A stretch of DNA of 64,000 nucleotides from an uncultured Alphaproteobacteria bacterium (GTDB lineage Bacteria > Pseudomonadota > Alphaproteobacteria > HIMB59 > GCA-002718135). A program made the position numbers and the translations under genes. The notes under the pieces are model-generated. The model was given only the letters and a program-made list of their open reading frames with translations, ran no database searches and was not told the DNA's origin. Location of the stretch: positions 1 through 64,000 of the forward strand of contig CACLJX010000002.1 in the NCBI GenBank assembly GCA_902607435.1. Direction: 5' to 3'. Shown here piece after piece: positions 45,405-60,028 of this stretch; position 1 is the stretch's first letter; the number at the start of each line of letters is the position of its first letter.

Positions 45405-47087
45405 ATGCTTTTAATTAACCCCGCAAGTGAAAAATTTGGGGGTTTTCTTTCTAGATATGTTCCTGTAGGCATTCCTACATCTCTTGGTTATGTCGCTGCA
45501 TATCTTGAGAAACACAATATTCGTTGTAATGTTCTTGATGAAGAAATTATTGATATTACTCCAAGTATTTTGAGAGACAAGATAGAAGGTTTAGAAAAAC
45601 CATATATATTTGGTATCAGTTGTTTGACTGCTCATGTTGGTCGTGGTTATCAAATAGCAAAGATGATTAAAAGTGAGTTTCCTGATTCAACTGTTGTTTT
45701 CGGGGGTCTTCATCCAAGCTCACTACCTGAAGAAGCTCTAGCAACCGGATACTGTGACTATGTAGTAAGAGGAGAGGGCGAAGAGATAACACTTAAGCTT
45801 TGCCAAGCCTTACGTGGCAAAGGAGATGCAACACAATTACTTGGCTTATCTTTTATTAAAGAAGGTATGATTATAAATAATCCTGAAGCACCTCTTATTC
45901 CTGACATTAATACAATTCCACCATACCCATACCATCTTTTTAATCATCCTAAATATGATATGGGTTTTTTAACGAGTTCCCGTGGTTGTCCTTATCGTTG
46001 TTCTTATTGTAGTCAACGTTTACTTACTGGCACAACATACCGCTATAAGTCTGCCGACTATATTGTTAAGGAACTTGATACTGTTGTAAACAAATTTGGT
46101 CAAAAAGCTGTTGTTTTTTATGATGATAATTTTTGCCTTAAATCTAGGCGTGTTCATGAACTGTGTGATAAAATCATTGAACGTGGTTTGCATAAAAAAG
46201 TTAAGCTATCTGTTCAAACACGTGCAGATAATGTAGTTATAAATGGAGGAGAAGATTTGGTTCGTCATATGGCTGAAGCAGGTTTTACCCATATGGGTTT
46301 TGGTCTTGAAACAGGGGTCCAACGTCTTGCAGACTTATCACGTAAGGATGAAACTGTGCAAATTCACTTTGATGCTTTGGACCTTTGTAACAAATATGGA
46401 ATGGATGTTTCTTTCTTTATGATTTTTGGTTTTCCTACGGAAACTGCTGCTGATAGATTAGAAACATTTAAATTAGTTCGCAACTCAACTGCTGTCGCTA
46501 CTAAATATAACAACATGATCCCGTACCCCGGGACACCAATTTATAATGAGTTAAAAAACAGTGGCAGGGTTGTTGTAACTGAAAACTGGGGAAACTTTAA
46601 CAGTGTGCTGGCAATGACAACCAGTATATTTGATAAAACACCATTGCCGTATGTACCTGAAACGTGTTCCGAGTGGGAACTAAAGCGAGATATTATTTTT
46701 TATAATTTAAAGTCTTTTGTAAACTGGAAATCATTGGCCGGTATATTTGGTCACACAAAGGGCATAGGTTGGTTTATGTTGCCACATGGTTGGTGGTATA
46801 AACCAAGAGAAGTTTGGGAAATAGCAAAGATTGGCATGTATCTTCTTACAAATATAATATTAACATTACTTCCTTTGTGGTTGACTGAGCCATTTATGTG
46901 CTGGTTAAATCCTAATCTCAAAAAACGTCAACGTGTTAAAAATTATGATCCTTCCACATATGTAGAGATAGATTGGGATCGTATGGACGTTCGTAACAAA
47001 GCAGTGTTACTAAAAAAAGCAAGAGATGAATTTAAAGAAAGTGGCACTTTCAATGTTACAGTTAAAGAAAATAAAATTGCAAGTTAG
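45405..47087 (+). CDS. B12-binding radical SAM protein
   Basis: A 560-residue protein: an N-terminal cobalamin-binding-type Rossmann domain (about 1-150; GISCLTAHVGRGYQIA, FGGLHPSSLPEE), a radical SAM barrel with the cluster motif GCPYRCSYC (cysteines near 194, 198 and 201), and a long C-terminal part with hydrophobic stretches near 425-500. The N-domain lacks an obvious DxHxxG, so B12 may not bind through histidine. Arginine is mostly CGT here, against AGA in the neighbours, and the gene is visibly less AT-rich: signs of transfer. Relatives act in lipid, hopanoid or bacteriochlorophyll modification. The reaction is unknown. Confidence 0.8.
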   Translation: MLLINPASEKFGGFLSRYVPVGIPTSLGYVAAYLEKHNIRCNVLDEEIIDITPSILRDKIEGLEKPYIFGISCLTAHVGRGYQIAKMIKSEFPDSTVVFGGLHPSSLPEEALATGYCDYVVRGEGEEITLKLCQALRGKGDATQLLGLSFIKEGMIINNPEAPLIPDINTIPPYPYHLFNHPKYDMGFLTSSRGCPYRCSYCSQRLLTGTTYRYKSADYIVKELDTVVNKFGQKAVVFYDDNFCLKSRRVHELCDKIIERGLHKKVKLSVQTRADNVVINGGEDLVRHMAEAGFTHMGFGLETGVQRLADLSRKDETVQIHFDALDLCNKYGMDVSFFMIFGFPTETAADRLETFKLVRNSTAVATKYNNMIPYPGTPIYNELKNSGRVVVTENWGNFNSVLAMTTSIFDKTPLPYVPETCSEWELKRDIIFYNLKSFVNWKSLAGIFGHTKGIGWFMLPHGWWYKPREVWEIAKIGMYLLTNIILTLLPLWLTEPFMCWLNPNLKKRQRVKNYDPSTYVEIDWDRMDVRNKAVLLKKARDEFKESGTFNVTVKENKIAS

Positions 47088-47109: not shown

Positions 47110-47580
47110 TTATAAAGATTTTAGAGATTTAAAAATATAATATACTATATTTAATAGCATGCTTTTTATATTTTTATGTTTGATAATATCATTATTTATT
47201 TCTATTTGTTTGGATGAAACAAATCTTTTTAATCTTAAATCCAATATTTTTTCAATAGTATATATATTCAAATAATCTTTTTTTTTGATGATCTTATGAG
47301 TATAAAAATCAAGTAAAATTTTTGTCCTAGGAGAGGTTTGTATCATGTTTGAAATATGGTATATTACCCAAAATATTAAGGAATTTAGTAGTAAAACAGT
47401 TAATATTACTTTTATATCAAATAGATAAAACATAATAATTATTGAAAATATATTGTTAATAGTAAACGCAATAATCTCAGCTATTCTAAATGGAAAATAC
47501 ATTTTTTGTTTAAAAGCAAAATAACTTATTTTTAAAATAAACAAAAAAGAAATTACATTTATAAAAAAAAATAATAACAT
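47110..47580 (-). CDS. Small membrane protein with winged-helix-like C-terminus (paralogue A)
   Basis: A 156-residue protein I do not recognise. Three hydrophobic segments (about 2-22, 32-53 and 56-77) are followed by a basic helical part (about 85-150) with the helix pattern of a winged helix (TKILLDFY, YTIEKILDLRLKRF, then a short beta-like turn). The C-terminus ends in another hydrophobic/basic helix. The same plan occurs in the next gene upstream, so the two look like diverged copies. One base separates them. They lie between a radical SAM gene and a GT2 gene. Confidence 0.55.
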   Translation of the reverse strand: MLLFFFINVISFLFILKISYFAFKQKMYFPFRIAEIIAFTINNIFSIIIMFYLFDIKVILTVLLLNSLIFWVIYHISNMIQTSPRTKILLDFYTHKIIKKKDYLNIYTIEKILDLRLKRFVSSKQIEINNDIIKHKNIKSMLLNIVYYIFKSLKSL

Positions 47581-47581
47581 T

Positions 47582-47974
47582 TTAACCCTCTGATTTTAAT
47601 CCAAGAAACTTTTTTATAAAAATAAATATTTTACAAAAAATCACACCATTATTAGTTAATAAAATAGAATCGTTTTGCATTACAATAAGCTTATCCTTTA
47701 TTAGAATTTTTATTCTTTCTTCTATTATTTTTTGATCTTCAAGATAGGTTAGAATTTTTTTTCTTTCACAAGAATTATTTTTTTTTAAATAATTAATAAT
47801 GTCATAACTTGGACTATTGATGAATCTTATTCCAATAACAAGAGTATAACTAATAAAAAAAAGGAAATTCATGATTAAACAAAGGAAATTATAGGGTTGG
47901 TTAAAATTTAAAAAATTGAGTTTTAATGAAATTAAAATAAATATAAATAAAATGAATTTTAGTAATTTTAACAT
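47582..47974 (-). CDS. Small membrane protein with winged-helix-like C-terminus (paralogue B)
   Basis: A 130-residue protein with two hydrophobic segments (about 3-22 and 28-50) and a C-terminal region about 57-122 that reads like a winged helix: YDIINYLKKNN (helix 1), KKILTYLED (helix 2), IIEERIKILIKDKLI (recognition helix), then VMQNDSILLTNNG, the typical wing ending in xLTxxG. No DNA-binding role is shown; a membrane-tethered regulator or a protein-protein adaptor are both possible. Next to paralogue A and downstream of the GT2 gene on the same strand. Confidence 0.55.
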   Translation of the reverse strand: MLKLLKFILFIFILISLKLNFLNFNQPYNFLCLIMNFLFFISYTLVIGIRFINSPSYDIINYLKKNNSCERKKILTYLEDQKIIEERIKILIKDKLIVMQNDSILLTNNGVIFCKIFIFIKKFLGLKSEG

Positions 47975-48939: not shown

Positions 48940-50463
48940 GTGAAAAATAAAATCTTATCTTTCCAGAATTTAATTAAAATTTCAAAATTAAAGCGTAATC
49001 AAAATAAAAAAATTGTTTTGTGTCATGGCGTTTTTGATCTTTTGCATATTGGTCATATTAAGCACTTTGAAGAAGCAAAAAATTTCGGCGATGTATTAAT
49101 AGTTACTATTACCCCAGATAATTTTATTAATAAGGGACCTAATAGACCAGCATTTAATACTAACTTAAGACTCGAAGCTTTACAAGCTCTCGAATGCATT
49201 GATTATGTGTCTGTTAACAAATGGGCCACAGCAACACAAACTATAAAATCATTAAAACCGGATGTTTATTGTAAAGGGCCTGATTATAAAAAAAAAGATA
49301 ATGATATTACAAAAAAAATATATGAAGAAGAAAAAGCGATTAAATCTGTTAATGGTTCACTTAAGTTTACCAATGCAATAAATTTTAGTTCAAGTAACTT
49401 ACTTAATAATTTTATTAAAATTCATACAAATAAACAAAGAAGATATTTAAACTATATTACTAAAAAGTTTTCCTTCCATGATATAAAAAATTTAGTTTCT
49501 AAATTGTTTGCTATTAAAGTGCTAGTTATTGGAGAAACAATTTTAGATAAATATGTTTTTTGTGAAACTCTTGGCAAGTCTGGCAAAGAACCAATACTAG
49601 CTTTAAGAGAAATTAAAACTGAAACATATTATGGAGGTTCGATTGCAATTTCTAATCATTTGTCAAATTTTTGTAAATCAATAAAATTATTTACAATGAT
49701 CGGTCAAAAAAAAGAATATAAAAATGATATAATGAAAAATAAATCTAAAAATATATCAGTTAATTTTTTTTATAAGCGTAATTCTCCTACAATCGTAAAA
49801 GAAAGATTTGTAGATTTAATTAATAAAAATAAAATTTTAGGAGTATATAAAATCAATGATGAATTAATAAATATCAAACAACAAAAAGAAATCGAAACAC
49901 AACTTAATAAACTAAAAGGAAAAATTGATCATATTATTGTTGCAGACTATGGTCATGGTTTTATTTCAGAAAAAATAGCGAGAAATATAACTAAAATATG
50001 CAAGTCTATTTCATTAAGTGCGCAGTTGAATGCTGCTAATCTTGGAATGCATACTATTAATAAATATAAAAAAATAGAAACAGTGGTGATTAATGCAATG
50101 GAATTAAGACAAGAAATGAGAGACAGAAATTCTCCAATTAAAATATTAATGAAAAAATTAACTCACAGAATAAAAATAAAAAATTTAATAGTTACAACTG
50201 GACAAGATGGATCTATTTTGTACGATAAGATTAATAATAAATATATCGAATGTCCTGCCTTTGCATCTAGTGTAGTAGATAAAGTAGGAGCTGGAGATGC
50301 AATGTTAGCTATTGTATCAATAGCGTTAAATATTGGTATTGATAAACATTTATCTTTACTTTTAGGTTCATTAGCAGCAGCGCAGTCAGTTGAGTCTATG
50401 GGCAATAGTAGTTTTGTAGATAAAAATCAAATGATGAAAGCAATTGAATCTCTAATTAAATAG
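48940..50463 (+). CDS. Cytidylyltransferase-PfkB kinase fusion (HldE-like with reversed domain order)
   Basis: A 507-residue fusion. Residues about 20-150 are a nucleotidyltransferase with HGVFDLLHIGH (29-39; HxGH site) and RLEALQALECID, like the HldE C-domain. Residues about 180-507 are a PfkB/ribokinase-family kinase starting LVIGETILDKYVF, with YGGSIAISNHL and the catalytic GAGD near 451-454. E. coli HldE has kinase first, transferase second; here the order is reversed. It would phosphorylate a sugar at C1 and then activate it with CTP or ATP. The start is GTG. First gene of the plus-strand sugar island. Confidence 0.85.
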   Translation: MKNKILSFQNLIKISKLKRNQNKKIVLCHGVFDLLHIGHIKHFEEAKNFGDVLIVTITPDNFINKGPNRPAFNTNLRLEALQALECIDYVSVNKWATATQTIKSLKPDVYCKGPDYKKKDNDITKKIYEEEKAIKSVNGSLKFTNAINFSSSNLLNNFIKIHTNKQRRYLNYITKKFSFHDIKNLVSKLFAIKVLVIGETILDKYVFCETLGKSGKEPILALREIKTETYYGGSIAISNHLSNFCKSIKLFTMIGQKKEYKNDIMKNKSKNISVNFFYKRNSPTIVKERFVDLINKNKILGVYKINDELINIKQQKEIETQLNKLKGKIDHIIVADYGHGFISEKIARNITKICKSISLSAQLNAANLGMHTINKYKKIETVVINAMELRQEMRDRNSPIKILMKKLTHRIKIKNLIVTTGQDGSILYDKINNKYIECPAFASSVVDKVGAGDAMLAIVSIALNIGIDKHLSLLLGSLAAAQSVESMGNSSFVDKNQMMKAIESLIK

Positions 50464-50538
50464 TAAAATGGAAAATAATATTTTAAATATAGAATATGAA
50501 AAAATAATTACTATAAAAGGAGAAAGGTCTTTTTAATT

Positions 50539-50874
50539 GTGAATAGTTTTAAAAATTTTTCAAATACCCCAACAATAACTGTGGAAAAAAAATGGTCTCT
50601 TCTGGACAATGACTCTAAAATAGATCAAATAACCTTTCAAATTAATGCATTTAATAACAATAAATTGAATATTAAAGTTGTAAGTGCTGATAGCAAAGGT
50701 CAAGTAATTATTGCTCTTCATGAAAATATGCCTGCCAAAGAAAGAGGTATGTTTTTACTTGATTTAGAGAATTTTTTAAAAGAAAATATAGATTCTGGTA
50801 TAAATATTTGGTGCGAACCCATTGGAGACAAAAATAAATTAAGACAACTTAGAGGCATAGAAATAAACACTTAA
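50539..50874 (+). CDS. Unknown 111-residue protein paired with a radical SAM gene
   Basis: I do not recognise this protein. It has a mixed alpha/beta pattern with strands (QITFQINAF, KLNIKVVSAD, QVIIALHE) and an amphipathic helix (KERGMFLLDLENFLKEN), ending LRQLRGIEI. No cysteines other than one in IWCEP. The start is GTG, with a purine-rich AAAGGAGAAAGG 11 bases before. It ends four bases before the radical SAM gene and both are preceded by the sugar-activating gene, so it may be a partner or carrier for one of them. That role is inference. Confidence 0.6.
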   Translation: MNSFKNFSNTPTITVEKKWSLLDNDSKIDQITFQINAFNNNKLNIKVVSADSKGQVIIALHENMPAKERGMFLLDLENFLKENIDSGINIWCEPIGDKNKLRQLRGIEINT

Positions 50875-50878
50875 AAAA

Positions 50879-52051
50879 ATGGAAAATGTAATTTTAAATA
50901 ATATAGAAAATAAAGACTCTTTAATAAGAACAAATGAAGGAGATTTAATTTTAGATTCTCATAAATTATCTTATCATTATGAAAGAGTAGAAGCTTGGGA
51001 AAATGGTGAAAAAATTGCTCCAGTAAGTGTAGATATGGCTCTTACTCGTGCATGTGGTGCAATGTGCTCATTTTGTTATGCTATGGTTCAAGAGCCTCAG
51101 GAAAGAGCAAGCATTAAAATTAAGGAGGCATTAGACTTAGCAGATGATTTTGCTAAAATTGGTGTTAAAGCTGTATCATTAATATCTGATGGCGAAAGTA
51201 CATTATCTAAATGTTATGTCCCCTTTATCCAACATTTATCAAATTTAGGTATTGATGTCGGAAATGCAACAAATGGATGGGAATGGGGACCAGAAAAAAT
51301 TGAATCTGTCTTACCCCACTTAACATGGGTCAGATTTACGGTGGGTGCTGGAACACCAGAAAGTTATTCAAAAATTATGTTTAAAGGTTCTGAGTACACG
51401 CATGTGTTCGACAAAGCAATGTCGAATATAAAGTATGCAGTTAATTTAAAAAAGAAAAATAAATTATCATCTACTTTGGGAATTCAAATGGTTCTTATGC
51501 CAGAATTTAAAGATGAAATTATTCCTTTTGCAAAATTAGCTCTGGAACTTGGAGTTGATTATGGCATTATAAAGCATTGTTCGGATGACGAATTTGGGAC
51601 TTTAGGAGTAGATTATAGCAAATATGAAGATATGTATGGTTTGTTAACAGAAGCTGAAAATTTAAGTAATGAGCAAACTAAAATCATTGTAAAATGGAAT
51701 AAGATAAAAGATAAAGGAATGCCTTCTTATAAAAGATTTTATGGACCTCAATTCTTGCTTCAAATTAGCGGTAGTGGATTAGTCGCACCTTCTGGTATGT
51801 TTTTTAATGCCAGATATTCTAAATTTCACATAGGAAATTTTGTTGATGAAAGATTTATAGATATTTTTAAATCTGATAGATATTCTAGAATAATGAATTA
51901 TCTTGCTTCTCCAAACTTTGATGCTCGATATATGATGGGCACGTTACCAATACAATACTATGTAAGCACAGCATTAGATAATCATGCGAAAGGAATAAAA
52001 AAAATAAAACCAAGAAATGAAAATAAGCCTTTGCACGTTAATTTTATATAG
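50879..52051 (+). CDS. Radical SAM enzyme, probably acting on a sugar intermediate
   Basis: A 390-residue radical SAM protein with the cluster motif TRACGAMCSFC (cysteines 59, 63 and 66), a GGE-like stretch read as ISDGEST near 100-106, and a TIM-barrel layout. Unlike MoaA or SPASM enzymes it lacks a second cysteine cluster at the C-terminus: cysteines after 66 are few. Position among sugar-nucleotide genes suggests epimerisation, dehydration or carbon-chain chemistry on a sugar. The substrate cannot be told. It follows the unknown 111-residue gene by four bases. Confidence 0.75.
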   Translation: MENVILNNIENKDSLIRTNEGDLILDSHKLSYHYERVEAWENGEKIAPVSVDMALTRACGAMCSFCYAMVQEPQERASIKIKEALDLADDFAKIGVKAVSLISDGESTLSKCYVPFIQHLSNLGIDVGNATNGWEWGPEKIESVLPHLTWVRFTVGAGTPESYSKIMFKGSEYTHVFDKAMSNIKYAVNLKKKNKLSSTLGIQMVLMPEFKDEIIPFAKLALELGVDYGIIKHCSDDEFGTLGVDYSKYEDMYGLLTEAENLSNEQTKIIVKWNKIKDKGMPSYKRFYGPQFLLQISGSGLVAPSGMFFNARYSKFHIGNFVDERFIDIFKSDRYSRIMNYLASPNFDARYMMGTLPIQYYVSTALDNHAKGIKKIKPRNENKPLHVNFI

Positions 52052-52168
52052 TTGAATCATATTATTATTTACTATTTTTTTTTATTTTATATAAATTCTA
52101 TATTACTTATAGAGAATAGTTCTTGACTTAAAAAAAATTTACAAAATGATACTTAATTATATTAAATA

Positions 52169-53122
52169 ATGAAAATATTAGTTACTGGAGCATGCGGGTA
52201 CCACGGTTCAAAGTTGGTTCCAATTTTATTAAATCAAAATCATAAAATTATTGCTGTAGATACACAGTGGTTTGGCAATTATTTAAAGAATCATAAAAAT
52301 CTTAAAATTATAAAAAAAAATATATTGGATTTAAAAAAACAAGATTTAAAAAACATAGATACCGTCATACATTTAGCTTCTATAGCCAATGATCCAATGG
52401 GAGATCTCAAACAAGAACTTACTTGGGAAATATCTTGTCTAGCGACAATGAAATTAATGGAAAATGCATTATCAAATAATGTTTCAAAAATCATATATTC
52501 TTCTTCAGCTTCAGTTTATGGTTTGAAAAAAGAAAGAAATGTTACAGAAGATTTGTCTTTAGAACCAATCTCAACATATAATAAAGCAAAAATGATAGCT
52601 GAAAGAACAATATTGTCATTTAAGGATTCTATTAATATATCAATTATTAGACCTGCAACAGTTTGTGGTCTTTCTCCAAGAATGAGATTTGATTTGAGTG
52701 TCAATATGCTAACTTATCAAGCTCTTAAGAATAAAAAAATTAATGTTTTTGGTGGTCAACAAATAAGACCTAACATTCACATTGACGATTTAATGAATGT
52801 ATATTTATTTTTTTTAAATAATGGTAGTAAATACAATGGAATTTTTAATGCTGGATTTGAAAATTTAAGTATTTTAAAAATTGCAAAAAAAATACAGAAA
52901 GTTGTGAATTCAAAAATTCATATTACAAAAAATGTCAATGACGTAAGAAGCTATAGAATTGACTCTACAAAGTTATTAAAACTAGGATTTTTACCAAAAA
53001 AAAATATTAACAATGCTATTAATGAAATTAATGATTATTATTTAAATAAAGTTGATAATGTAAAAATGAATTGTTTTTCTCTTGAATGGTTAAAAGCTCA
53101 ACAATCAAAATTATTGCAATAA
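52169..53122 (+). CDS. NAD-dependent sugar-nucleotide epimerase/dehydratase
   Basis: A 317-residue extended SDR. The Rossmann loop is TGACGYHGSKL (6-16), a variant of TGxxGxxG. The catalytic pair is Y137 and K141 in STYNKAK, preceded by the SSSASVYG strand (about 111-118). IRPATVCG and HIDDLMNVY (around 158 and 207) are usual for sugar-nucleotide epimerases. First gene of a tight run (gaps of 8 bases or less, some overlaps) to 60028. The 117 bases upstream probably hold a promoter; none is clear. Substrate unknown. Confidence 0.85.
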   Translation: MKILVTGACGYHGSKLVPILLNQNHKIIAVDTQWFGNYLKNHKNLKIIKKNILDLKKQDLKNIDTVIHLASIANDPMGDLKQELTWEISCLATMKLMENALSNNVSKIIYSSSASVYGLKKERNVTEDLSLEPISTYNKAKMIAERTILSFKDSINISIIRPATVCGLSPRMRFDLSVNMLTYQALKNKKINVFGGQQIRPNIHIDDLMNVYLFFLNNGSKYNGIFNAGFENLSILKIAKKIQKVVNSKIHITKNVNDVRSYRIDSTKLLKLGFLPKKNINNAINEINDYYLNKVDNVKMNCFSLEWLKAQQSKLLQ

Positions 53123-53128
53123 ACTGTA

Positions 53129-54097
53129 ATGTTAAAAAAAGAAAAAATAAAATTATTAAAAAAAATGAAGTTAATAAGATTAGCAGAAGAATCTATTGCG
53201 GAAAAATATTCTGATCAAAAAATGAGATGTCCAGTACATCTGTGTACAGGTCAAGAGGCTACTGCTGCAGCAATAGGATTATTATTAAATAAAAATGACT
53301 ATGTAGTTAGTACACATAGATCCCATGGCCACTATTTGGGAAAGGGTGGAAACTTAAAAAAAATGTTAGCAGAAATTTACGGCAAGACTGATGGTTGTAG
53401 CAAAGGATACGGGGGATCTATGCATTTAATTGATTTAAATGTTAACTTTATGGGAAGCACAGCGATTGTTGGTAACTCTTTGCCAGTTGGAGCAGGATTA
53501 GCTTTAACTATAAAAATTGAGAGATCAAAAAAAATAAGTTGTATTTTTCTAGGAGAGGGATGCATAGAGGAAGGTGTTTTTCATGAGACAGTTAATTTTT
53601 GTGCTGTTCATAAATTACCAGTTCTCTTTGTTTGTGAAAATAATTTATATTCTGTTTATTCATCTTTATTGTTCAGACAACCAAAAAATCGTTCTATAGC
53701 AAAAATGGTAAATGCCATGGGTATTAAAAGTTTTTCTATTGATGGCAATGATGTTAACAAAATATATGAACTAGCATCTAAAGAGTTGCCAAAAATTCGC
53801 TCAGGATTAGGGCCAAGATTTATAGAATTTAAAACCTATCGATGGCGAGAACATTGTGGTCCAGATTTTGATAATCATATAGGATATAGAACAGAAAAAG
53901 AATTCCAAAAATGGAAAAAGAAAGATCCTATTCAACAATTTCAAACTAAACTTTTAAAAAATAATGAAATAACTAAACAAGAAATAAAAAAAATTGATAA
54001 AAATTTATTAAACAAAATTAATCTTGCTCATAACTATGCTGAAAAGTCACCTTTTCCAAAACCAAGTGAAGCACTTAAAAATGTTTATGCTAAATAA
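53129..54097 (+). CDS. Thiamine-diphosphate E1 component, alpha-subunit type
   Basis: A 322-residue protein of the 2-oxo-acid dehydrogenase/acetoin dehydrogenase E1-alpha family: CTGQEATAAAIG, STHRSHGHYLGKGG (about 68-81), KGYGGSMHLID, and the diphosphate/Mg-binding GEGCIEEGVFHETVNFCAVHKLP ending in CENN (here GEG in place of the common GDG). The beta subunit follows after two bases. No E2 (lipoyl) or E3 gene is near, and the flanks are sugar genes. A carboligase role adding a two-carbon unit to a keto sugar is a fair hypothesis, not a fact. Confidence 0.85.
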   Translation: MLKKEKIKLLKKMKLIRLAEESIAEKYSDQKMRCPVHLCTGQEATAAAIGLLLNKNDYVVSTHRSHGHYLGKGGNLKKMLAEIYGKTDGCSKGYGGSMHLIDLNVNFMGSTAIVGNSLPVGAGLALTIKIERSKKISCIFLGEGCIEEGVFHETVNFCAVHKLPVLFVCENNLYSVYSSLLFRQPKNRSIAKMVNAMGIKSFSIDGNDVNKIYELASKELPKIRSGLGPRFIEFKTYRWREHCGPDFDNHIGYRTEKEFQKWKKKDPIQQFQTKLLKNNEITKQEIKKIDKNLLNKINLAHNYAEKSPFPKPSEALKNVYAK

Positions 54098-54099
54098 TT

Positions 54100-55158
54100 A
54101 TGACAAATAGAAAAATTTCTTTTGTGAGAGCTATAAACGAAGCTTTGTTTATTGCTATGAAAAAGGAAAAAAAAGTAATTTGTTTTGGATTAGGCGTAGA
54201 TGATCCAATGGGTACTTTTGGAACCACTGTTGGTCTTCAAGAAGAGTTTGGGATTGAAAGAGTATTTGATATGCCTACCTCTGAAAACACTTTGACAGGG
54301 GTTTCAATAGGAGCTGGATTAGCAGGTTATAGATCAGTTATATCTCATCTAAGAGTTGATTTTTTTTTACTTGCAATGGATCAGCTAGTTAACGGTGCTG
54401 CAAAATGGCATTATATGTTTGGAGGCAAAACATCAGTTCCTATAACTATAAGATTGATTGTTGGAAGAGGTTGGGGGCAAGGACCTACTCATTCACAGAG
54501 TTTACAATCCTGGTTTGCTCACATCCCTGGATTAAAAGTTGTAATGCCTTCTACAGCGTATAATGCAAAAGGATTATTAATTGCAAGTATATTTGATAAT
54601 AATCCAGTCATCTTTATAGAACACAGATGGCTGCATAATCAAATTGGATATGTTCCAAAAAATGAATACAAAATACCCTTGCAAAAAGCAAAAATTGTAA
54701 AAAAAGGAAATGATATAACAATTGTTTCCATATCTTTTATGGTTGTAGAAGCTATAAAAGCAATTAATTTTTTAAATCAACATAAAATTTCATGCGAGTT
54801 AATTGATTTAAGAACAATTAGCCCTATTGATTATTTAACAATAAATAGATCTGTGAAAAAGACAGGTAGATTATTAGTTTTAGATACAGATAATGCAAAT
54901 GTATCGGTAGCTAGCGAAATTGTAGCTAGAATTTCTATGAATCTTTTTAATTTCTTAAAGACTGCACCAAAAATGATTGCCTTACCAGATGTACCTACCC
55001 CTTCAAGTTTTGGACTTACAAAAAATTTTTATCCAGGCTCAAAAGAAATTGTTGAAAAAATATTAAAAATATTAAAAAAGAGCATTAATACCAATAAACT
55101 TTCTAACAGTAACGATCTTCATGATGTACCTGGTTCATGGTTTAAAGGCCCTTTTTAA
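54100..55158 (+). CDS. Thiamine-diphosphate E1 component, beta-subunit (transketolase-like) type
   Basis: A 352-residue partner of the preceding alpha-type gene. It has the pyrimidine-binding fold with the conserved glutamate region (FDMPTSENTLTGVSIGAGLAG, read around 64-84), a hydrophobic VDFFLLAMDQLVNGAAKWHYMFGG block, and a transketolase C-terminal domain with IVSISFMVVEAIKA and IDLRTISPID. Alpha-beta E1 pairs usually feed a lipoyl E2, which is absent here. A C-terminal extension of about 20 residues (DLHDVPGSWFKG) is unusual for the family. Confidence 0.85.
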   Translation: MTNRKISFVRAINEALFIAMKKEKKVICFGLGVDDPMGTFGTTVGLQEEFGIERVFDMPTSENTLTGVSIGAGLAGYRSVISHLRVDFFLLAMDQLVNGAAKWHYMFGGKTSVPITIRLIVGRGWGQGPTHSQSLQSWFAHIPGLKVVMPSTAYNAKGLLIASIFDNNPVIFIEHRWLHNQIGYVPKNEYKIPLQKAKIVKKGNDITIVSISFMVVEAIKAINFLNQHKISCELIDLRTISPIDYLTINRSVKKTGRLLVLDTDNANVSVASEIVARISMNLFNFLKTAPKMIALPDVPTPSSFGLTKNFYPGSKEIVEKILKILKKSINTNKLSNSNDLHDVPGSWFKGPF

Positions 55159-55160
55159 TT

Positions 55161-56162
55161 GTGATTCAAAAAAAAAAAATTGTTGTTATTGGTTCTAATT
55201 CTTTCTCTGGCTCTAACTTTATTAATTATTCTCTTTCGAAGAAAGATAATATTATTGGTATAAGCAGATCTAATGAATATAATAAAGTTTTTCTTCCATA
55301 TAAATCAAATAAAAATCTAAATAAATTTAAATTTTATAAATTAGACATAAATAAAAATATAAATAAAATTCTTGATATAATTGATAATTTTAAACCAGAA
55401 ATAATTGTAAATTTTTCTGCTCAGGGAGAAGTTCGTAATAGCTGGAATTATCCTGAGCAGTGGTATAATACAAATTGTTTATCAGTAGTAAATTTAAGCA
55501 ATGCATTAGTAAAGAGAAGTTTTATTAAAAAATACATAGCTATATCTACACCTGAAGTTTATGGAAGTAATAAAAAAAAAATTAGCGAAAGCAATTCATT
55601 TTATCCGAGCACTCCTTATGCTGCTTCAAAACTTGCAGGTGACTTACATTTAATTACATTATTTAAAAAATATAACTTTCCAGTTATTTTTACTCGATCA
55701 GCCAATGTTTATGGACCTTTTCAACAACTTTATAGAATAATTCCTAAGACCATTATATCGCTTAAAAAAAATATAAAAATTAAATTGCATGGAAAAGGTA
55801 AATCTAAAAGATCATTTATACATATTGATGATGTAATTAGTGGAGTTTATAAATTAATTACCTACGGCAAAAATGGTGAAGCATACCATATTTCTCCAAC
55901 AACAAGAAATATTTCCATCTACAGTCTTGTAAAGTATATTTGTAAAATTATGGATTATGATTTTAATTCATCAGTTAAACTAGTAAATGAAAATTATGGT
56001 CAAGATTTAGCATATATATTAAACTCTAATAAAATTAGAAAAATTGCAAATTGGTCAGATAATATTTCTTTAGAAAACGGAATACAAGATACGATAGAGT
56101 GGGTTAACAATAATTGGCAAGCCATTCATATCATGTCTGTTGATTATCAGCATAAAAAATGA
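55161..56162 (+). CDS. NAD-dependent sugar-nucleotide dehydratase/epimerase (second SDR)
   Basis: A 333-residue extended SDR with the loop IGSNSFSGSNF (10-20), STPEVYGS (129-136), and the catalytic Y153/K157 in TPYAASKLAG. RSANVYGPFQQ (near 175) and FIHIDDVISGVY are typical of the GDP-mannose/dTDP-glucose dehydratase group. Start is GTG, three bases after the E1-beta gene, and its stop overlaps the next ATG by four bases (ATGA). A keto-sugar product of such an enzyme would suit the aminotransferases that follow. Substrate unknown. Confidence 0.85.
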   Translation: MIQKKKIVVIGSNSFSGSNFINYSLSKKDNIIGISRSNEYNKVFLPYKSNKNLNKFKFYKLDINKNINKILDIIDNFKPEIIVNFSAQGEVRNSWNYPEQWYNTNCLSVVNLSNALVKRSFIKKYIAISTPEVYGSNKKKISESNSFYPSTPYAASKLAGDLHLITLFKKYNFPVIFTRSANVYGPFQQLYRIIPKTIISLKKNIKIKLHGKGKSKRSFIHIDDVISGVYKLITYGKNGEAYHISPTTRNISIYSLVKYICKIMDYDFNSSVKLVNENYGQDLAYILNSNKIRKIANWSDNISLENGIQDTIEWVNNNWQAIHIMSVDYQHKK

Positions 56163-57316
56163 AAACAGCAAATAAAAACTATTTATCCAAGCAATATAAA
56201 AAGGATGATAAACTTTTAATAAGTCATAATTATTTAAAGCTCCAATTTAAAAATTCAAATAAAATTATATCAGATATAAAAAAACTTATTAAAAAAGGAG
56301 ATTATACTTTAGGTAAGGCAGTGGATGAGGCTGAAGAAAAATTTAAAAAAATTTCAAATAGTAAATATGCAATTGGAGTAAATAGCGGTACTGATGCAAT
56401 CATTTTAAGTTTAAGAGCAATAGGCATTAAAAAGGGAGATGAAGTAATTACAACACCATATACTTTTTATGCAACTATAGGTGCAATAGTAACTGCTGGA
56501 GCAAAGCCTGTATTTGTTGATATACAAAATGATTATAATATAGATGTTAAAAAAATTGAAAGAGCTATAACGAAAAAAACAAAAGCAATACTTCCAGTTC
56601 ATTGGTCAGGTTTAATTTGCGATATGAAAAAAATTAGTAAATTAGCTAAAAAAAATAACATATTTATTATTGAAGATGCTTGTCATGCGATAAATGCATT
56701 AAGAGATGGTGAAAATCCAGGAAAATACAGTATTGCTGCCTGTTATAGTATGCATCCATTAAAAAATCTAAATGTTTGGGGGGACGGTGGATTTATTACA
56801 ACTAATTCTAAAAAATTTTATGAAAAATTACTTTTATTACGTAACCATGGATTAATTAATAGAGACACTTGTAAAGTTTTTGCCGGAAATTCAAGATTAG
56901 ATACTATACAAGCAATTGTTGCGAAACATTTAATAAATAAAATTCAATATATAACTAATAAAAGAATCAAGAATGCTAATTTTTTTGATAAGGAATTTTC
57001 ATCTATTCCTGAAATTATTTTACCTACTAGATACAAAAATTCAAAACAAGTTTTTCATATATATGTTATAAGGGCAAAAAAAAGAGATTTATTGAAAAAA
57101 TATCTTATAAAACATGGAATTGATGCCAAGATCCATTACCCTCTTCCAATGCATTTACAACCTGCAGCAAAAAAATATGGTTATAGAAAAGGCGATTTTC
57201 CTAATTGTGAATTAATCTGTAAATCAGTTTTATCTTTACCAGTTCATGAATTTATTTCTAACAAACAAAGAAACTATGTAGCTAAAGTAATTAAAAATTT
57301 TTATAAAAATTATTAA
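56159..57316 (+). CDS. DegT/DnrJ/EryC1 sugar aminotransferase (first of a tandem pair)
   Basis: A 385-residue PLP enzyme of the keto-sugar aminotransferase family. NSGTDAI (75-81), VHWSG, IIEDACHAINA (170-180; Asp for the PLP ring nitrogen), and SMHPLKNLNVWGDGG (197-211) with PLP-lysine K202 are present. It has a 25-residue N-terminal extension that its neighbour lacks, and a cysteine/His pair (ACHA) where most have AAQ. The two tandem copies align throughout but are clearly diverged, so they probably act on different keto sugars or positions. Confidence 0.85.
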   Translation: MKTANKNYLSKQYKKDDKLLISHNYLKLQFKNSNKIISDIKKLIKKGDYTLGKAVDEAEEKFKKISNSKYAIGVNSGTDAIILSLRAIGIKKGDEVITTPYTFYATIGAIVTAGAKPVFVDIQNDYNIDVKKIERAITKKTKAILPVHWSGLICDMKKISKLAKKNNIFIIEDACHAINALRDGENPGKYSIAACYSMHPLKNLNVWGDGGFITTNSKKFYEKLLLLRNHGLINRDTCKVFAGNSRLDTIQAIVAKHLINKIQYITNKRIKNANFFDKEFSSIPEIILPTRYKNSKQVFHIYVIRAKKRDLLKKYLIKHGIDAKIHYPLPMHLQPAAKKYGYRKGDFPNCELICKSVLSLPVHEFISNKQRNYVAKVIKNFYKNY

Positions 57317-58416
57317 TGAAGGTTCCATTTGTTAACTTAGGATTACAATATCAAGCTATTAGAAATCAAATAATTGATAAATTTGATGAACTATCAAAAA
57401 AAGGTGAATATATTTTAGGTGAAGAGCTTGAAAATTTTGAAAAAGATTTTTCAAAATATTGTGGGACAAAATTTGCAATAGGAGTCGGCAATGGTTCTGA
57501 TGCACTAACATTGAGTCTTAGGGCAATAGAATTGGAAAAACAAAATGAAGTTATTATGCCTGGAAATTCATTTATAGCTACAGCCTGGACAGTAGCAAAT
57601 TTGGGAGCCAAGCCAGTATTCATTGATGTATTAGAAGATTTTAATATTGATCCTTCATTAATTGAACAAGCTGTCACTAAAAATACAAAAGCAATCATCC
57701 CTGTGCATTGGACAGGCAGAATGGCAAATATGCTTCAAATAAATGATATAGCAAAAAAACATAATTTGCATGTTGTTGAGGATGCAGCTCAGTCAGTTGG
57801 AGCATCAATTGGATTACAAAAATCTGGATCATTCGGCATTACAGGTTGTTTTAGCTTACATCCTTTAAAAAACCTTCATGTTCATGGAGATGGGGGCGTA
57901 ATTACAACAAATGATGATAAAATTTATAATATTGTAAAAAAATTAAGAAATCATGGACTTAAAAATAGAGATACAAGCGAATTATGGGGTTATAATTCTC
58001 GTCTGGATAATATTCAGGCTGCAATAGCAAGAATAAAATTACCTTATTTAGATGGATGGAATAAAAAATTTATTGAAATAGCAAATATATATTCAAATGA
58101 GTTAAAAAATATTGTCGAGGTTCCTAAAGAAGAAAAAAATAAAATTTCTATTTATCATAGATATATGATTCAACATCCAAATAGAGATAAGCTAAAAAAA
58201 TTTTTACAAGAGAACGGAATAGAAACTAAAATTAATTATCCAATTCCACTACATTTGCAACAAGCAGCATCTAGTTTAGGTTATAAAATTGGAGACCTTC
58301 CTAATGTTGAGAAACAATCTAAATTAATCTTAAGCCTTCCTATTTATGCTGAGTTGGAATATAATCAAATACATTACATAATAGAAAAAATAAAAAAATT
58401 TAATCAAGTTTTTTAA
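57316..58416 (+). CDS. DegT/DnrJ/EryC1 sugar aminotransferase (second of a tandem pair)
   Basis: A 366-residue PLP enzyme with GNGSDALTLSLRA (58-70), PVHWTGRMANM, VVEDAAQSVGA (153-163) and SLHPLKNLHVHGDGG (180-194) with PLP-lysine K185. Start and previous stop overlap by one base (TAATG). The canonical AAQS suggests it is the more typical sugar 3- or 4-aminotransferase of the two. It precedes a membrane protein gene by one base. Amino acid donor is normally glutamate in this family. Confidence 0.88.
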   Translation: MKVPFVNLGLQYQAIRNQIIDKFDELSKKGEYILGEELENFEKDFSKYCGTKFAIGVGNGSDALTLSLRAIELEKQNEVIMPGNSFIATAWTVANLGAKPVFIDVLEDFNIDPSLIEQAVTKNTKAIIPVHWTGRMANMLQINDIAKKHNLHVVEDAAQSVGASIGLQKSGSFGITGCFSLHPLKNLHVHGDGGVITTNDDKIYNIVKKLRNHGLKNRDTSELWGYNSRLDNIQAAIARIKLPYLDGWNKKFIEIANIYSNELKNIVEVPKEEKNKISIYHRYMIQHPNRDKLKKFLQENGIETKINYPIPLHLQQAASSLGYKIGDLPNVEKQSKLILSLPIYAELEYNQIHYIIEKIKKFNQVF

Positions 58417-58417
58417 T

Positions 58418-60028
58418 ATGGTTAATCAAAAACATAAATATTTTTTTATTTTTTTATTTTTTCTAGGTTTATTGCATTGGATTTTTTTTTATTTTTTTGT
58501 AGATTATTATTCATATAATAATATTGATCCTACAAAAAATATAGAAATAACTAATATAAATGTTCCTTTAGTGGATCAAAATCATCTTTTTATTCTTAAG
58601 AATAATTATTATAATGATGATAAAGATTTAATTAAAAAAATTATTAAAGAAAAGAAAATAAAATTTTCTAAAATATTCCAGTACAAAAAATATAATGCCC
58701 ATGATTGGGTAAAAGATCACAAATACCACAAGATCATTACTCAGTCTTTAAGAGAATTTAAAATTCCATATACAGTTAAAAATATAAATAATTTTTTTCC
58801 TATTACAAATGAAAACTATTTATCAGTTCCTTCGATTCCTTTTTCACCACAAATTATTCTTTTATATTTTTTTAATTCAGAAATTTATATGTTAATTAAT
58901 TTAATTCTACTATATTCAATTGGTTTTGTGGGTTGTTTATTAATTAGAAATTATTACAATTTATCTATTATCCCTTTTGTATTTTTGTATCTGATATTTA
59001 ATTTTAACGGTTACGTTGTTGAAAAATATAGTGCTTATGGTTCTTCACAAATGGGATATTATTTTTTTCCTTTTATTTTTTATTTTTTACTGAGACTTTC
59101 CGATGAACAAAACACTCAAAAATGTTATTTTTGGAGCATTTTATTAGGAATTTTTCTATCACTTGTATTGCTACAAGGAAGTTTTCATTATTGGGCTGAA
59201 CTTATGACTTTTGTCGTATTTTGGAGCATTGTAAATTATAAACTTTGGAAAGCTTCTTTTTTAATTTTTCTTACTCATTTTTCAACTGGCTTATGTAGAT
59301 TGCTAACGAGTTTTGTCACTTATAAATTTACTAAAAATCCTCATACTTATGAATGGAAACAAGGATACAATAATTTTGAAATTTTTATATCTGGTCTAGT
59401 ATCTACTCAAGACCAATTAACCCCACAAGTCTTTGCCTCATGGGAGAGAAGTATATATATAAGTATAATTGGACTATTTTTTCTAGTTTATTTTAGTTTA
59501 TGGGGACATGTAATCAAGGCTCCTTGGAGAAAATTTACTGGATGGAAATATTTTATATTACCTTGTCTATTAATCACTGTAATTTCTTTTCGCCAATTTA
59601 AATTTTATATTGTGCCTGATTTTATTCCAATATTAAATGCTGAATCTTTATTTCATAGATATATAATTTTTGCATTAATTTTATTAACAATTATTGCAAC
59701 CATAAATATTCAGGGCTTCGTTGAACATTATAAAAATATTAAAAGAATTAATATTGTTTTAATTGGATCTATTAGTTTAATGGCTCTTTTTTTATTTAAT
59801 CATTCAAGACTATGGAGAAATCATCTTGTTCAAAATCAGTATGACTGGACACAAAAAATACATCCTGAGCCAAGTGTAGCTTTTCTTAGAGAAACTGAAT
59901 TGCTTATTACTAATAGTAATGTCGATACTTTGTATGTTACAGCTTTTTGGGGTGGTTGGATCATCACTTTTATTTCTTCAGTTTTTTTTATTAGACTGTT
60001 ATTAAAATTATATAATAATAAATCATAG
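58418..60028 (+). CDS. Large multi-pass membrane protein, possibly a GT-C-type transferase
   Basis: A 536-residue protein I do not assign to a known family. It has an N-terminal membrane segment (about 8-28), a soluble loop of about 100 residues, then around eight hydrophobic segments (about 148-175, 180-200, 210-230, 238-275, 345-365, 380-400, 410-430 and 445-465) and one at the very C-terminus. This plan, with a large first periplasmic loop, resembles polyprenyl-sugar-using GT-C or YfhO-like proteins, but no catalytic motif can be named. It ends the sugar run, so transfer or export of the finished sugar is likely. Confidence 0.6.
   Translation: MVNQKHKYFFIFLFFLGLLHWIFFYFFVDYYSYNNIDPTKNIEITNINVPLVDQNHLFILKNNYYNDDKDLIKKIIKEKKIKFSKIFQYKKYNAHDWVKDHKYHKIITQSLREFKIPYTVKNINNFFPITNENYLSVPSIPFSPQIILLYFFNSEIYMLINLILLYSIGFVGCLLIRNYYNLSIIPFVFLYLIFNFNGYVVEKYSAYGSSQMGYYFFPFIFYFLLRLSDEQNTQKCYFWSILLGIFLSLVLLQGSFHYWAELMTFVVFWSIVNYKLWKASFLIFLTHFSTGLCRLLTSFVTYKFTKNPHTYEWKQGYNNFEIFISGLVSTQDQLTPQVFASWERSIYISIIGLFFLVYFSLWGHVIKAPWRKFTGWKYFILPCLLITVISFRQFKFYIVPDFIPILNAESLFHRYIIFALILLTIIATINIQGFVEHYKNIKRINIVLIGSISLMALFLFNHSRLWRNHLVQNQYDWTQKIHPEPSVAFLRETELLITNSNVDTLYVTAFWGGWIITFISSVFFIRLLLKLYNNKS

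Follow-up and report, generated by a model that had tools for sequence, protein, structure and literature searches.

The ten-gene island

The window considered here, by which we mean the whole stretch of 64,000 nt analysed from contig CACLJX010000002.1 (GCA_902607435.1), holds at 48940-60028 an island of ten genes that probably serves the making of an unusual, carbon-extended nucleotide sugar with the help of a thiamine pyrophosphate (TPP) enzyme and a radical S-adenosylmethionine (SAM) enzyme. Genes were assigned with Pfam and NCBIfam profiles. All ten open reading frames (ORFs) named in a preliminary description of this DNA were confirmed in the same order and at the same positions, and their family assignments agree with the profiles:

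48940..50463, + strand: NTkin, CTP_transf_like and PfkB fusion (Pfam; NCBIfam HldE, 167 bits)
50539..50874, + strand: U111, 111 residues, family-less (motif alignment; adjacency to rSAM1; structure model)
50879..52051, + strand: rSAM1, Radical_SAM (Pfam, 39.4 bits against a cut-off of 29.5)
52169..53122, + strand: SDR1, a short-chain dehydrogenase/reductase (SDR) of the Epimerase family, NAD-dependent epimerase/dehydratase (Pfam; closest solved chain 6vo6)
53129..54097, + strand: E1-alpha-type TPP subunit (E1a), E1_dh (Pfam, 214 bits; alignment with pyruvate dehydrogenase (PDH); tree)
54100..55158, + strand: E1-beta-type TPP subunit (E1b), Transket_pyr and Transketolase_C (Pfam; PDH alignment)
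55161..56162, + strand: SDR2, Epimerase, dTDP-glucose-4,6-dehydratase-like (TIGR01181, 196 bits; PDB 6bi4, E 5e-41)
56159..57316, + strand: DegT1, sugar aminotransferase (Pfam, 324 bits)
57316..58416, + strand: DegT2, sugar aminotransferase (Pfam, 351 bits; closest solved chains 7b0d, QdtB and 3uwc)
58418..60028, + strand: membrane protein without a family, final gene of the run (Pfam, also at E 10)

From SDR1 to the membrane protein the genes form one tight run with gaps of 6, 2, 2, -4, -1 and 1 bp, and to this extent the operon of the preliminary description holds. NTkin, U111 and rSAM1 share the strand of this run with gaps of 75, 4 and 117 bp, and a single transcript for all ten genes, predicted from strand and spacing, is likely. 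Like the membrane protein, U111 has no Pfam match even at E 10, and neither the fusion nor the E1 pair, nor any SDR or DegT, reached an NCBIfam equivalog cut-off (for SDR2, the TIGR01181 cut-off is 365).

Relatives in cellular genomes and tailed phages

Searching one genome per species across 84,980 species with exact 8-residue words of the window rSAM1, we found 26 cellular loci at 66-82% identity to it, in host groups that include SAR11, Prochlorococcus, Nitrospira, Nitrosospira, Zetaproteobacteria, Polynucleobacter and Opitutales (Verrucomicrobiota). Some of these loci come from metagenome bins and their taxon labels may be wrong, as for L034, whose U111-rSAM1 contig of 4.6 kb was assigned, probably through a binning error, to a gut bacterium labelled Bifidobacterium breve. 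U111 adjoins rSAM1 in 25 of the 26 loci, NTkin is present in 21, and a TPP enzyme lies near rSAM1 in 22 (20 E1 pairs and 2 split transketolases); of the other four, three are truncated where their contig stops and one is the lone Prochlorococcus copy L033. This co-occurrence is far above chance. The gene-neighbourhood search proposed in the preliminary description for U111, the radical SAM enzyme and the E1 pair has thus found the core together in relatives instead of scattered in unrelated contexts, which sustains its view that these genes belong together and read as a sugar-nucleotide route with a TPP-dependent carbon-chain step.

The gene order in Nitrospira, Nitrosospira and Zetaproteobacteria is rSAM2-SDR-SIS-NTkin-E1a-E1b-U111-rSAM1, where SIS is a GmhA-like isomerase and rSAM2 a SPASM radical SAM enzyme; Polynucleobacter has the same order plus two extra genes ahead of E1a, and an annotated plasmid of Azospirillum oryzae reads SDR-SDR-NTkin-SIS-SDR-E1a-E1b-DegT-DegT-U111-containing protein-rSAM1. 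The recurrent core is therefore a GmhA-like isomerase, a reversed HldE-like fusion, an SDR, a TPP enzyme, U111 and rSAM1, often with a second, SPASM radical SAM enzyme. Variation affects SDR2 and the DegT genes: in many SAR11 loci two DegTs lie next to rSAM1, and the Nitrospira, Nitrosospira and Polynucleobacter copies keep the E1 pair with no DegT nearby. Because the Nitrospira and Polynucleobacter copies do so, amination is not central to the module, contrary to the earlier proposal of a route to an amino sugar. Likewise, SDR2 and the membrane protein, both previously counted as members, fall outside the recurrent core, the latter because it has no counterpart among the 26 cellular loci.

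The median identity of rSAM1 among relatives is 77%, against 39-50% for its core neighbours, a difference that is partly a selection effect, since the search used exact words of rSAM1 itself. In the order to which this genome belongs, rSAM1 was present in 4 of 162 genomes, its own included, and among 60 close relatives only in its own; a phylum-wide sample of 398 genomes had U111 in 2 (own included) and NTkin in 49. The patchy presence, together with similarity that crosses phyla, points to horizontal transfer.

The module also occurs in tailed phages. Among IMG/VR contigs we found 23 loci with rSAM1, 17 of which have a terminase match in the record (two of these weak), and in 17 of the 23 a TPP enzyme lies near rSAM1 (11 E1 pairs, 4 transketolases and 2 enzymes of the acetolactate-synthase type). 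In L096 a terminase stands between E1b and rSAM1, and in L098 and L101 portal or head-tail and capsid genes surround the module. In L092, L093 and L101 the block E1a-E1b-U111-rSAM1-NTkin-SDR-DegT-SIS lies between portal-like and capsid-like genes, as annotated with PHROGs for L101 and as read from the same layout and length for the other two. The phage E1a sequences of L096, L098 and L099 group among bacterial sugar-cluster sequences in the tree. Named phage records gave no close rSAM1 copy.

Several phage E1b and split-transketolase TktC proteins have no Transketolase_C domain. Loci with such short E1-beta-like or TktC-like proteins (160-200 residues), which retain the pyrimidine-binding domain without Transketolase_C and would make very small two-subunit TPP enzymes, are:

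L092, L100, L102, L103, L105, L106, L107, L108, L111

Three further observations concern phage genes. A family of 250-360 residues without a Pfam match, possibly a glycosyltransferase, stands in 1-3 copies beside the sugar module of L092, L093, L101 and L110 (e.g. L101:6702-7652, motif RPNSVLVxAMGxHW). A third radical SAM family (~300-380 residues, CxxxCxxCIN) lies beside rSAM1 and rSAM2 in L022, L100, L103, L105, L106 and L108. Finally, in the complete podovirus genome MW202801 (L147) the capsid gene is directly followed by a distantly related radical SAM gene (23-26% identity), and then by glycosyltransferases and a methyltransferase; this named phage record has a glycan cassette that parallels the module.

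Enzymes of the module

NTkin joins a cytidylyltransferase-like domain (residues 28-152) to a PfkB kinase (residues 193-492). The fusion seen in the preliminary description is real and HldE-like, with its domains in the reverse of the HldE order and a score far under the NCBIfam HldE cut-off of 521; its nucleotide need not be CTP. Of 57 relatives, 52 have the HxGH motif and 54 the G[AC]GD motif. The closest solved chain to SDR1 is 6vo6, the GDP-heptose C4-dehydrogenase Cj1427. A GmhA-like SIS gene of this genome lies outside the window on contig C23, a HAD phosphatase accompanies the module in phage L101 and is found close to U111 in L016 and L017, and L101 has the complete foursome of isomerase, kinase, phosphatase and nucleotidyltransferase. 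Heptoses are activated by an isomerase, a C1 kinase, a phosphatase and a nucleotidyltransferase, followed by a C4-oxidising SDR (PMC10680097). By analogy, the activation logic of the module would be that of heptoses, and the putative substrate is likely heptose-type. The preliminary description had missed this logic, the GmhA-like isomerase and the carriage by tailed phages.

The E1 pair is ~30% identical to PDH E1 and, aligned with human and Geobacillus-type E1 chains, keeps the TPP site and the residues aligned with the active-site His and Glu of PDH E1, the catalytic Glu and His of E1-beta included. No E2 gene was found near the pair at the locus; the E2 genes of this genome lie elsewhere, one set accompanied by the genome's own PDH E1, and in the tree the window E1-alpha falls outside the separate clade of E2-linked E1a (support 99/98). 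The slot of the TPP enzyme may be filled by an E1 pair, a split transketolase or an acetolactate-synthase-type enzyme. Five large alphaproteobacterial genomes have a split transketolase (TktN/TktC) instead of the E1 pair, between SDR-NTkin-SDR and two DegTs:

L130, L131, L135, L136, L137

In phage L091 the enzyme is of the acetolactate-synthase type, fused behind a segment judged by eye to be cupin-like. That three TPP families take one slot speaks for TPP carbon chemistry as the function needed there. Sugars are described to gain two-carbon branches through enzymes of two types, represented by AviB1/AviB2, a PDH-like pair, and by YerE, a flavoprotein (PMC4425429; PMC4753412; PMC10338323), and both types, E1 and acetolactate synthase, occur in the slot of this module. 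From this context and the replacement by an acetolactate-synthase-type enzyme, we infer that the E1 pair would perform an AviB-type two-carbon transfer from pyruvate onto a keto sugar. It may be added that L117 and L120 each have their E1 match inside a single ORF of ~690 residues, apparently an alpha-beta fusion, which adjoins NTkin, and that the rSAM1 relative beside it retains the auxiliary cysteines.

In rSAM1 the CxxxCxxC motif (C59, C63 and C66) is invariant across 23 aligned sequences, and the C-terminus is a degenerate SPASM-like end without the cysteines of a SPASM/twitch auxiliary cluster. Outside the window clade, all 14 compared relatives keep four cysteines in the C-terminal part that are characteristic of an auxiliary Fe-S cluster. 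In the clade these four are replaced, in the window protein by F287, S305, M353 and P357, while C234 and the three cysteines of the motif are kept; the clade has thus probably lost its auxiliary cluster. For the rSAM1 of phage L091 the alignment is off at the first two conserved cysteines, yet the protein holds CGAMCSFC. In a tree built from 59 sequences, the window clade of 29 rows has 100/100 support and branches from within phage and Azospirillum sequences. The nearest solved folds to the rSAM1 model are DesII (the top match), SkfB, SuiB, PqqE and BlsE; the likeness to DesII is at the level of fold only, as the DesII equivalog TIGR04426 is absent from the NCBIfam hits of rSAM1.

U111 carries a conserved C-terminal motif, VW.EP.GDKSKLR.LRGI, and its gene is adjacent to that of rSAM1, with ends that often overlap, which suggests that the two proteins are partners. 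The U111 model (predicted local distance difference test score, pLDDT, 86) is a small alpha/beta fold like those of NFU1, RbfA and KH domains, and many unrelated proteins score alike. We considered an Fe-S carrier of the NFU1/NifU type (VIA Z 9.1 to NFU1, many others at 7-8, Foldseek E 0.05 or worse), and dropped this role because the fold match is weak and no cysteine, the CxxC of NFU1/NifU included, is conserved in the alignment. A 360-residue U111-domain protein of Azospirillum gave no sequence link to PDB or Pfam.

Proposed route, alternatives and neighbouring regions

The explanation that we favour, with a little more than even confidence, is a mobile operon for a heptose-type NDP-sugar of a surface glycan, built with a TPP-dependent two-carbon transfer and radical SAM tailoring, and with amination as an option. 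The GmhA-like SIS enzyme would isomerise a ketose phosphate, the kinase half of NTkin would add a phosphate at C1, and, after dephosphorylation by the HAD phosphatase, the nucleotidyltransferase half would activate the sugar, in the manner of heptose pathways. SDR1 or SDR2 would then yield a keto sugar, onto which the E1 pair, working without E2 or a lipoyl carrier, would move a two-carbon unit from TPP, and rSAM1 with its partner U111 would carry out a radical deoxygenation, an epimerisation or a C-C step. DegT enzymes would aminate in some variants, and glycosyltransferases would use the product.

Several points weigh against this proposal. A GmhB model search of this genome (assembly 84% complete) gave no match, several loci have no SIS or phosphatase within the stretch examined, and the rSAM1 of Prochlorococcus L033 is solitary. 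The fold of rSAM1 is near to peptide-modifying enzymes as well as to DesII. Every substrate, the step order and the product are inferred for all members. Moreover, more than one sugar pathway is encoded in polysaccharide regions, and the DegTs, SDR2 and the membrane protein may serve another sugar.

One alternative is a desosamine-like route, in which SDR2 would give a 4-keto-6-deoxy sugar, one DegT would aminate C4, rSAM1 would deaminate as DesII does, the other DegT would aminate C3, and the E1 pair would belong to a separate sugar. DesII as the top structural match, the presence in the window of one dehydratase-like SDR with two DegTs, and the two DegTs by rSAM1 in many SAR11 loci would all fit; yet rSAM1 tracks the TPP enzyme and not the DegTs, as the Nitrospira, Nitrosospira and Polynucleobacter loci illustrate, and it has no NCBIfam match to DesII, so that we hold this route to be improbable. 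Somewhat less doubtful, though still unlikely, is that the TPP enzyme acts first, in a transketolase-like synthesis of an unusual ketose phosphate on which SIS and NTkin then work, and that the product is a linear higher-carbon sugar, not a branched one. Such an order would explain the split transketolase in the same slot of many NTkin loci and the ketose phosphate that a SIS isomerase requires, but E1-type and acetolactate-synthase-type enzymes normally take 2-oxo acids such as pyruvate, and a pyruvate-derived 1-deoxyketose is not convertible to an aldose by SIS. We slightly favour a branch on the activated keto sugar over the building of a ketose precursor.

That the E1 pair is a spare PDH E1 captured by chance and unrelated to the sugar genes seems very improbable: its identity to PDH E1 and its kept catalytic residues are what such an origin would leave, yet no E2 is nearby, the genome's own PDH is elsewhere, the E2-linked E1a form their own clade, the pair is swapped for other TPP families in the module, and several phage E1-beta forms have shed Transketolase_C. 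We give equally little credence to U111 and rSAM1 as a peptide-modifying pair, of the kind that acts on ribosomally synthesised and post-translationally modified peptides, merely travelling with sugar genes; rSAM1 is indeed distantly similar to SkfB and PqqE, but no short precursor ORF recurs, U111 is not precursor-like, and sugar and TPP genes are constant neighbours.

No described pathway matches the module, and the preliminary description likewise could name none; a literature search gave no paper joining radical SAM, transketolase, phosphoheptose isomerase and polysaccharide, with nothing relevant for other combinations. Nearest in gene content are AviB1/AviB2 of avilamycin (eurekanate) and Pau11/Pau12 of paulomycose, likewise PDH-like alpha/beta pairs without E2 in sugar clusters with SDRs and glycosyltransferases (PMC4425429). 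These, however, belong to actinobacterial antibiotics, and the papers mention no GmhA-like or HldE-like activation and no U111 or rSAM1 partner. YerE (yersiniose), which puts a two-carbon branch onto a 4-keto sugar, is an acetolactate-synthase-type TPP flavoprotein like the enzyme in the slot of phage L091, but it is a single flavoprotein of O-antigen sugar routes, which use CDP-sugars, and has no radical SAM enzyme. The GDP-heptose pathway of the Campylobacter jejuni capsule shares the activation logic and the C4-oxidising SDR (PMC10680097), with 6vo6 nearest to SDR1, but its kinase and guanylyltransferase are separate and it has no TPP enzyme or radical SAM enzyme. HldE/RfaE joins a PfkB heptose kinase to a cytidylyltransferase fold as NTkin does, in the opposite order. 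DesII and BlsE, closest or near in fold to rSAM1, share 13-14% identity with it, and rSAM1 differs in its missing auxiliary-cluster cysteines and its U111 partner. In the pelagimyophage host-recognition cluster, radical SAM cassettes and rfaE were reported as single phage genes, and the passages searched of that paper describe no TPP-radical SAM sugar module or pathway (PMC7029224). New here are the phage carriage, the exchange of TPP enzymes and the loss of the auxiliary-cluster cysteines in the window rSAM1 clade.

More tentatively, and at somewhat less than even confidence, we propose that the module makes carbon-extended nucleotide sugars, branched or higher-carbon, of a new class, that it does so by combining TPP transfer with a radical SAM enzyme devoid of an auxiliary cluster and with the new family U111, and that it is exchanged between aquatic bacteria and tailed phages, which would carry it among head genes for the decoration of virions or the alteration of host receptors. 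If this is true, there would be a further route to carbon-extended sugars across several phyla of aquatic bacteria and phages, U111 would have a testable role, and radical SAM enzymes with and without an auxiliary cluster would form a natural pair for comparing the role of that cluster. Phages would then hold the greater part of a nucleotide-sugar pathway, set among genes for head and packaging, which would bear directly on phage-host recognition in the sea.

Upstream of the island and divergent from it, a family-2-like glycosyltransferase was read from the sequence, and its 59% relative adjoins the same module in L015:

48059..48781, - strand: family-2-like glycosyltransferase

Further upstream, at 45405-47087, lies a gene for a 560-residue radical SAM protein that reads as the cobalamin-binding type, and between it and the island are two very AT-rich minus-strand ORFs (47110-47974, GC 17-19%). 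Elsewhere in the same genome, contig C13 (L144, L145) holds a second, different sugar island with SIS, a split transketolase, a radical SAM gene, DegT, SDRs, two genes resembling sugar nucleotidyltransferases and an E1-like pair in which the beta-like subunit is short, and contig C6 at 46000-65500 (L146) has a fused E1 of ~645 residues with an E2 amid several radical SAM genes.

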